Below are positions 42,355 through 42,661 of a DNA stretch of 64,000 nt, one piece after another. The notes under the pieces were generated by a model. The model made no database searches. It was not told the DNA's origin and saw only the letters and a list, made by a program, of their open reading frames with translations. This stretch comes from Gammaproteobacteria bacterium. Its GTDB lineage: Bacteria; Pseudomonadota; Gammaproteobacteria; Pseudomonadales; Halieaceae. Where the stretch lies: positions 1 to 64,000 of the forward strand of contig JAUIMF010000008.1 of NCBI GenBank assembly GCA_030433415.1, given 5' to 3'. Both the position numbers and the translations under genes were made by a program. The first letter of the stretch is position 1. Each line of letters begins with the position of its first letter.

Positions 42355-42428
42355 TCCAAACCTAAACCTCCAAACGAAAAACCCCCGCCGATGGCGAGGG
42401 TTTGTCGTTTGGTAGGACCAGGCGGATT
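42355..42428. repeat. 74-bp direct repeat, copy A (tRNA-Val 3' end remnant plus terminator)
   Basis: This matches 42530-42603 at 73 of 74 positions (G at 42414 in place of T). Its last 19 bases (42410-42428) equal the 3' end of the tRNA-Val gene including CCA, after which identity stops and the rest of the tRNA is missing. It is thus a partial duplicate of the tRNA 3' end and its terminator hairpin. Confidence 0.92.
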
Positions 42429-42529
42429 GATCGTAACGGGCTTTGGCCCGTTACGACCCTCCGGGCGTCCTCGCGCTACGCGCTGCGGGCGTCTAAATTG
42501 CTGCGCAATTTGTCGAACAGCGGTTCTTA
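42429..42529. mobile_element. 101-bp hairpin-rich insert between the 74-bp repeats
   Basis: It contains a perfect 11-bp stem (TCGTAACGGGC, 42431-42441, with its complement at 42446-42456, TTTG loop), a GC-rich block with CGCGCTACGCGCTG, and a 7-bp stem AAATTGC-TGC-GCAATTT (42495-42511). No coding capacity. It looks like a REP- or MITE-like mini-element, or the scar of an integrated element at the tRNA 3' end. The class is inference. Confidence 0.45.
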
Positions 42530-42603
42530 TCCAAACCTAAACCTCCAAACGAAAAACCCCCGCCGATGGCGAGGGTTTTTCGTTTGGTAGGACCAGGCGG
42601 ATT
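42530..42603. repeat. 74-bp direct repeat, copy B (contains the 3' end of the intact tRNA-Val gene)
   Basis: Partner of 42355-42428, offset 175 bp. It spans the terminator at 42547-42585 and the last 19 bases of the functional tRNA gene. Direct repeats that end inside a tRNA 3' half are the usual form of attL/attR sites. Confidence 0.92.
42547..42585 (-). terminator. terminator of the tRNA-Val gene
   Basis: A perfect 13-bp outer stem (AAACGAAAAACCC, 42547-42559, with its complement at 42573-42585) plus an inner CGCC-GAT-GGCG stem. Read on the minus strand it ends in a T-rich arm. It starts at the last base of the tRNA CCA end. A near-identical second copy lies at 42372-42410. Confidence 0.8.
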
Positions 42604-42661
42604 CGAACCGCCGACCTCTACCATGTCAAGGTAGCGCTCTAACCAACTGAGCTATGGTCCT
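42585..42661 (-). tRNA. tRNA-Val (anticodon GAC), CCA end encoded
   Basis: The 77-nt minus-strand product folds into a cloverleaf: acceptor AGGACCA pairs with TGGTCCT; the D-arm has AGCTCAGTTGGTTAGAGC; the anticodon stem CTACC/GGTAG encloses loop TTGACAT with anticodon GAC; the T-arm GGCGG-TTCGAAT-CCGCC follows. The 3' ACCA is encoded. A near-consensus promoter lies upstream and a strong hairpin downstream. The 3' end is duplicated 175 bp away. Confidence 0.97.

Follow-up and report, generated by a model that had tools for sequence, protein, structure and literature searches.

A tRNA-linked repeat behind tRNA-Val(GAC) in a Halieaceae genome, with a conserved core fold, a host-matched hairpin and mirrored relatives

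In the window analysed here, a 64,000-nt stretch of DNA from a gammaproteobacterium of the Halieaceae, the 3' end of a tRNA-Val(GAC) gene and its terminator are present twice, with a short sequence between the copies. Does this duplication mark the place of an integrated island, as a first-pass annotation of the DNA considered, or does it belong to an element in its own right? The locus is very probably a tRNA-linked repeat (TLR) of tRNA-Val(GAC), in which the tRNA is followed by terminator T1, a structured core, a copy of tRNA bases 58-76 and terminator T2. A read-through RNA and recombination between the repeats would complete this reading.

The two direct copies of 74 nt have a spacing of 175 nt and are identical at 73 of 74 positions, and a chance origin of so near-perfect a repeat is excluded. 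Each copy consists of the last 19 bases of the tRNA, its terminator and a short linker. The repeated tRNA portion corresponds exactly to bases 58-76 and is identical at all 19 positions. The distal copy lacks the rest of the tRNA and otherwise has the same content. The annotation had described the repeat, its make-up, the truncated outer copy and the 101-bp hairpin-rich core in these terms, and all four points hold. The single mismatch between the copies, A versus C, lies in the 5' arm of the terminator. At this position the distal copy carries the base of the single copy found in a congener (G003), so the altered base probably belongs to the copy near the tRNA.

Read along the minus strand, the locus comprises, in this order, a promoter-like site, the tRNA gene, T1, a 15-nt linker, the core, the 19-nt tail copy, T2 and a linker (Table 1). 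The core begins 56 nt downstream of the tRNA on the same strand, and the homology between the 74-bp copies ends at its start. Both terminator hairpins are intact. Folded alone, the core reaches a z-score of -2.8 (1 of 200 shuffles as good), and the whole 307 nt reach -11.7 (0 of 100). The linker and the tail are complementary over 4 bp at this locus (GGAT with ATCC). About 40 bp past the distal copy, at 42260-42316, an imperfect inverted repeat (CTCGATTGA ... TCAATCGAT) can be seen by eye; it is absent from the repeat search.

Table 1. Features of the tRNA-Val(GAC) locus, in coordinates of the window.
Feature	Coordinates	Strand	Basis
Promoter-like site of the tRNA gene, TTGAGA-17-TATAAT	42675..42703	-	sigma-70-like consensus match only, 11/12
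Intact tRNA-Val(GAC), CCA encoded	42585..42661	-	tRNA detection; Rfam tRNA 73.5 bits
Proximal repeat: tRNA bases 58-76 (42585-42603), terminator T1 (hairpin 42545-42587), 15-nt linker	42530..42603	-	repeat comparison
TLR core, 101 nt	42429..42529	-	R1 88.7 bits, R2 80.6 bits; training sequence of both models
Hairpin H1, GAAC-CGCT-GTTC	42515..42526	-	left arm and next bases (GAACCGC) complementary to host tRNA T-arm
Hairpin H2, AAATTGC-GCA-GCAATTT	42495..42511	-	fold and covariation
Small hairpin H4, CCC-GGA-GGG	42457..42465	-	covariation
Long hairpin H5, TCGTAACGGGC-CAAA-GCCCGTTACGA	42431..42456	-	adjoins tail; fold and covariation
Distal repeat: 19-nt tail copy of tRNA 3' end (42410-42428), terminator T2 (hairpin 42370-42412), linker remnant	42355..42428	-	repeat comparison

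The arrangement is not confined to one genome. All four genomes of the genus (own included) contain tRNA-Val, a terminator and a core of the same type in that order. The core is followed by a 20-bp tail copy in G002 and by a tail of about 10 bp in G001, while G003 has no tail, and none of these three has the distal terminator. In the last hairpin, both sides differ between the window and G002 with pairing kept; together with the conservation in the genus, this two-sided change is evidence against a recent scar.

Covariance models extend this range. R1, built from nine cores of the window and its relatives, matches 76 of 120 Halieaceae genomes, a few of which supplied training sequences. R2, built from 111 matches, was run on an even draw of 369 genomes across the class and finds the core in 71 of them (own included); neither model contains an enterobacterial sequence. 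In 40 further stretches fetched for R1 matches, the cores lie behind Val, Ser, Lys, Arg, Asp and Pro tRNAs, are often trailed by the 3' end of the host tRNA itself and often form tandem arrays with periods of about 170-220 bp. Among 30 class loci (one from the window's own genome), ARAGORN detects a tRNA in 28, and 21 have a downstream copy of its 3' end. Gln and Glu tRNAs join the list of hosts when both sets are taken together. The window's genome itself has a further core, behind tRNA-Ser(GCT) (locus L144).

The 156 model matches of the two sets, A4 and A5, correspond to 144 distinct units. For 111 of these, a same-strand tRNA is found no more than 1200 bp upstream, with 16 anticodon types in all; the other 33 have none in that range. 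A draw across the phylum yields matches at E 1e-4 in 12 of 299 genomes. Six of these genomes carry no closer label than 'same phylum', and a tRNA with a tail copy is present at four of the six loci. Searched against plasmids, the core alone gives only short, weak matches with coverage of at most 36%. The whole 307 nt match 195 phage records; among the 20 matches listed, the alignment lies inside the first 111 bases and covers mostly the tRNA itself.

Base pairing within the core is conserved. Across 96 distinct aligned sequences, 93.7% of the cells are paired, compared to 74.6% after shuffling, a control that ignores kinship. Sliding one side by 1-3 columns, which corrects for kinship, lowers pairing to 29-47%, with structure and alignment fitted to the same sequences. 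Two-sided changes that keep the pair are found at 22 of 26 base pairs. Read on the tRNA strand, G-U pairs are more frequent than A-C mismatches (36 and 18 cells), and two adjacent positions of H5 switch between standard pairs and G-A/A-G. Tandem G-A pairs are described for RtT (PMC8250186, PMC7657543), and the alternation seen in H5 of some units is the same motif. The excess of G-U pairs and the G-A alternation point modestly to an RNA made from the tRNA strand.

TLRs were reportedly first described in 1978, in E. coli; the earlier literature is said to include Egan and Landy 1978, Rudd 1999, and Bosl and Kersten 1991/1994. A later study counts 22 E. coli copies at ten loci, each closing with 18-19 bp that are identical to the 3' end of the tRNA or rRNA upstream, and it states that TLRs had no known function before its work on rrA, rrB and rrF (PMC8144298). 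The same study places these three between two rrn terminators, attributes them to read-through, reports in vitro binding to Hfq and CsrA, and describes two rrB RNAs, of about 173 and 115 nt, that arise by read-through between the two terminators (PMC8144298). The window element shares their dual terminators, the structured core between them and the 18-19 nt of a stable RNA end copied before T2. They sit behind 5S rRNA, whereas the window element follows a tRNA. Their reported binding of CsrA also differs from the cores analysed here, which show no excess of GGA (CsrA-type) motifs (1.60 per core compared to 2.13 shuffled in 89 A4 cores, 2.80 compared to 2.84 in 44 A5 cores); a reading of the core as a CsrA sponge was rejected for this reason.

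We searched three E. coli stretches with R2. The rrnB and argQ-serV stretches give seven matches up to E 1. The strongest (27.8 bits, E 2e-5) falls on rrB, between T1 and T2, and the other six have E 0.016 or worse. rrB, which was not part of the training of R2, is the only match below E 0.01 in the three stretches. At tyrV, the rtT copies score a non-significant 5.8-6.2 bits, and the best match (8.2 bits) lies on the opposite strand. A same-strand position directly downstream of a tRNA, a 19/19 match to its 3' end and a core homologous to rrB thus characterize the window element, which by sequence comparison is assigned to the TLRs by layout and homology, outside the reach of the Rfam RtT model. 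That model (RF00391) does not list the window copy up to E 5, short of its cut-off, and has no match in the window's genome at E 0.001. On the same 369 class genomes it matches 65 at E 0.001 and 23 above the curated cut-off, and it overlaps with R2 at 22 places in 21 genomes.

The rtT repeats of E. coli tyrT and tyrV combine likeness and difference. Their tandem unit of about 178 bp compares to 175 here, and both end with 19 nt of the tRNA. By eye, they share a plan with a GATGAGAA...TTCGAC start, a CCCGAAGGG hairpin and tandem G-A in the last hairpin. No intrinsic terminator is seen by eye between tRNA and core at tyrV, whereas the window has T1; tyrV has a long linker-tail helix in place of the 4 bp found here; and the window copy is missed by RF00391. 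In further papers, RtT-family RNAs appear on Northern blots in Actinobacillus (PMC4986893) and a 175-bp VNTR of Salmonella is listed at an rtT RNA (PMC2658671). Since BIME repeats are described there as having rtT-like similarity (PMC2965389), part of the resemblance may be common to other palindromic repeats. At another locus (L147, 813-1354), the Rfam family AaHKsRNA22 (Aggregatibacter sRNA 22) matches all three units with 34.7-35.5 bits. The cut-off is 39.8 bits, and that identity was not accepted for the units; AaHKsRNA22 may itself be a TLR.

The hairpin H1 usually begins GAACNNNN and tends to match the T-stem of the host tRNA. We compared the four bases after GAAC with T-stem bases 49-52 of the neighbouring tRNA, using one unit per locus (76 units, of which 68 have the anchor, with 19 T-stem types). 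On average, 2.86 of the four are complementary, compared to 1.55 when T-stem types are shuffled, and none of 10000 shuffles over the 19 types is as high. The right arm gives no such signal against bases 49-52 (1.25 compared to 1.19, 1375 of 5000 shuffles as high) and a weak one against bases 51-53 (1.79 compared to 1.55, 1 of 5000).

A linker that can pair with the tail stands ahead of H1 in E. coli tyrV and at some of the Gln, Glu, Tyr and Ser loci. Counted by position, the helix has 4.20 of 8 pairs in 44 R1-set units, compared to 4.11 shuffled, and 4.04 compared to 3.81 in 27 class units (141 of 1000 shuffles as high). A long linker-tail helix was therefore rejected as a general feature. A looser alignment test scores the host's own tRNA at 4.42 and other tRNAs at 3.40 (AUC 0.716).

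Among the 33 units without an upstream tRNA, we read about 25 by eye, plus those of L192, L207 and L209. One group of cores lies behind tRNA 3' fragments, an arrangement that resembles the far end of an integrated island. The second group is mirrored: here tRNA 5' sequence adjoins the core on its left and ends after TTCGA, and an intact tRNA follows downstream. Some of the units have no recognisable tRNA part.

The mirrored form can be delimited by comparing the left flank with the tRNA of the locus. A left edge can be recognised for 144 of the 156 rows, of which 123 have a same-strand tRNA in the locus. Eight units at five loci are of this 5'-type, with leader and tRNA 5' part matching over 35-148 nt and an intact tRNA downstream in every case; in the remaining 115 units, the match is shorter than 14 nt. 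The 5'-type match spans 135-148 nt including the leader in L147, L192 and L135, 72 nt in L207 and only 35 nt in L167. L135 is identical to the intact tRNA at 70 of 70 bases and L147 at 72 of 72. A sixth mirrored locus, L168, is found by alignment with a 2-nt gap.

When the flanks of the core are joined, ARAGORN recognizes a tRNA in 3 of 130 unique units: a tRNA-Ser in L192 (1186-1278, with some acceptor mismatches) and L147 (825-926), and a tRNA without assigned type in L186. Joining the flanks of another unit of L147 (1261-1362) gives no tRNA. Both the mirrored order and the joined flanks locate the core inside the T-loop, at the junction of bases 58 and 59 of a broken tRNA copy, and in 3'-type units of many tRNAs the right side begins at base 58/59. 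The 3'-type units, including that of the window, thus keep the right half of the tRNA and little beyond the T-arm on the left, and 5'-type units the left half. By eye, E. coli rtT has AAGGTTCGA on the left and ATCCTTCCCCC on the right of the core, in agreement with the T-loop position, and rrB has GAGTAGG on the left and AACTGCCAGGCAT on the right, as in 5S. Two RtT RNAs of Actinobacillus are placed upstream of tRNA genes in one report (PMC4986893), and by analogy these may be the same mirror form.

Two loci stand apart. In L192 (1060-1800; G430, a single contig), one tRNA-Ser(GGA) has both forms, with an interrupted copy and leader upstream and two 3'-type units downstream. In L209, a weak core-like match (21.5 bits; minus strand, 2472-2574) is embedded in a copy of tRNA-Ser(GCT). 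By eye it sits close to the D-arm/anticodon boundary instead of the T-loop, and it may mark a second insertion point.

The most likely account of the observed layout, family spread, fold conservation, host-specific 3' end, T-loop position and tandem arrays is a putative structured RNA unit, made by read-through, whose copy number changes by recombination; E. coli rrB offers the known precedent. RNA polymerase would pass T1 now and then, and the core of the read-through RNA would fold into hairpins H1-H5 with the tRNA tail next to them. The tail would offer tRNA 3'-end signals to processing enzymes, and the repeats of 19-74 bp would let recombination add, remove and homogenise units. Because a terminator stands between promoter and core, expression of the core may be low.

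Three alternatives compete with the read-through unit. The annotation took the repeat for the attL/attR structure of a tRNA-targeting integrase and offered, as one option, the scar of an excised island. A direct repeat of the tRNA 3' end does lie at both borders, equally a feature of TLRs, and its 19 bp have the length usual for att sites. Tyrosine recombinases of islands and phages use such tRNA 3' ends, and an integrase gene with three Pfam domains stands directly behind tRNA-Val(GAC) at L041 (12107-13671), where neither TLR nor terminator is seen beside the tRNA. At L226 (G002:C5:238500-255500), a 101-aa ORF behind the TLR tail resembles an integrase N-terminus by eye, and Pfam assigns it no family. 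The cores of L133, L138, L152, L161 and L166 lie, by eye, behind tRNA 3' fragments without a 5' part that look like island ends; such fragments would be expected if islands integrate in the tRNA and displace the old 3' end with its TLR. No integrase, however, was found within or beside the window's repeat: the genome (89.5% complete) has ten integrase matches, none on the window's contig (C77), and Pfam reports no integrase family among eight flanking ORFs, three of which have no family at all. Clean excision would moreover leave one att copy, not two, and the locus keeps its order in all four genomes of the genus. The conserved 101-nt core, with its RNA-like covariation, recurs behind many tRNAs and is not random island residue, and the repeat takes in a terminator that in both copies is the host tRNA's own. 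We therefore reject the island scar or att site as the main reading, and consider it very unlikely that the site is a live one or that an island disappeared from it through internal deletion. Least likely is a plain tandem duplication of the tRNA end and terminator around a core without a role: two intact terminator hairpins could be useful by themselves, but compensating changes keep the base pairs of the core, which refutes duplication as a full account, and G001-G003 have the core without the distal terminator. As a separate observation, L226 contains, about 13 kb beyond the 101-aa ORF, a damaged 3' part of tRNA-Val with a terminator-like palindrome, which would fit the entry of an island at this place.

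A more serious, still tentative alternative treats the core as a present or former small mobile element whose insertion site is the tRNA T-loop, at bases 58/59, with no duplication of the target. A broken tRNA copy would then survive only beside an intact one, losing its 5' part (3'-type) or its 3' part (5'-type), and the E. coli TLRs would be aged copies. The five mirrored loci, in which tRNA 5' sequence up to TTCGA directly adjoins the core, the sixth at L168, the three tRNAs restored by joining and the constant right border favour it. So do core identities, compared over 46 loci: between genomes, the mean is 0.561 for the same tRNA (155 pairs) and 0.554 for different tRNAs (860 pairs), and within one genome different tRNAs reach 0.601 (20 pairs, kinship uncorrected), a pattern compatible with exchange between loci. 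Against mobility, all 46 cores have their nearest neighbour in another genome (same tRNA in 16, other tRNA in 30), the 5'-type is confined to a small minority of units, unit 1261-1362 of L147 restores no tRNA, and no enzyme, terminal signature or fresh pair of empty and filled sites was found. IS200-type transposases were rejected as the mover, with no association to the core (24 of 33 compared to 52 of 87 genomes, p 0.21); none of the four genomes of the window's genus has one, and all four have cores. The annotation had also proposed a mini-element that uses the tRNA as a target; this comes nearer than the scar, with the core in the T-loop of tRNA copies and a tail equal to the 3' end used by the L041 integrase, and mobility of the core itself would be putative. 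In its broadest version, which we regard as rather doubtful, TLR cores would be tiny insertion elements that target the near-universal T-loop at 58/59, enter almost any tRNA and persist as broken copies on either side of the intact gene, with H1 kept matched or re-tuned to the host T-stem. If this were true, the H1 match could let the read-through RNA pair with the host tRNA.

In the open-access literature, we found no description of TLRs in this lineage, and none of the 5'-type, of an insertion point in the T-loop or of the match between H1 and the T-stem. The H1 match and the mirrored order at five loci go beyond what we found in print. For the interpretation of genomes, the locus illustrates that a repeated tRNA end alone does not prove an att site or the scar of an island. 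The class-wide spread, the match of H1 to the T-stem and the mirror form, which exposes the exact insertion point, merit follow-up. TLRs occur in many gammaproteobacterial families and slightly beyond, and their shared fold, host-matched H1 and mirror form make the origin and role of these elements testable outside E. coli.
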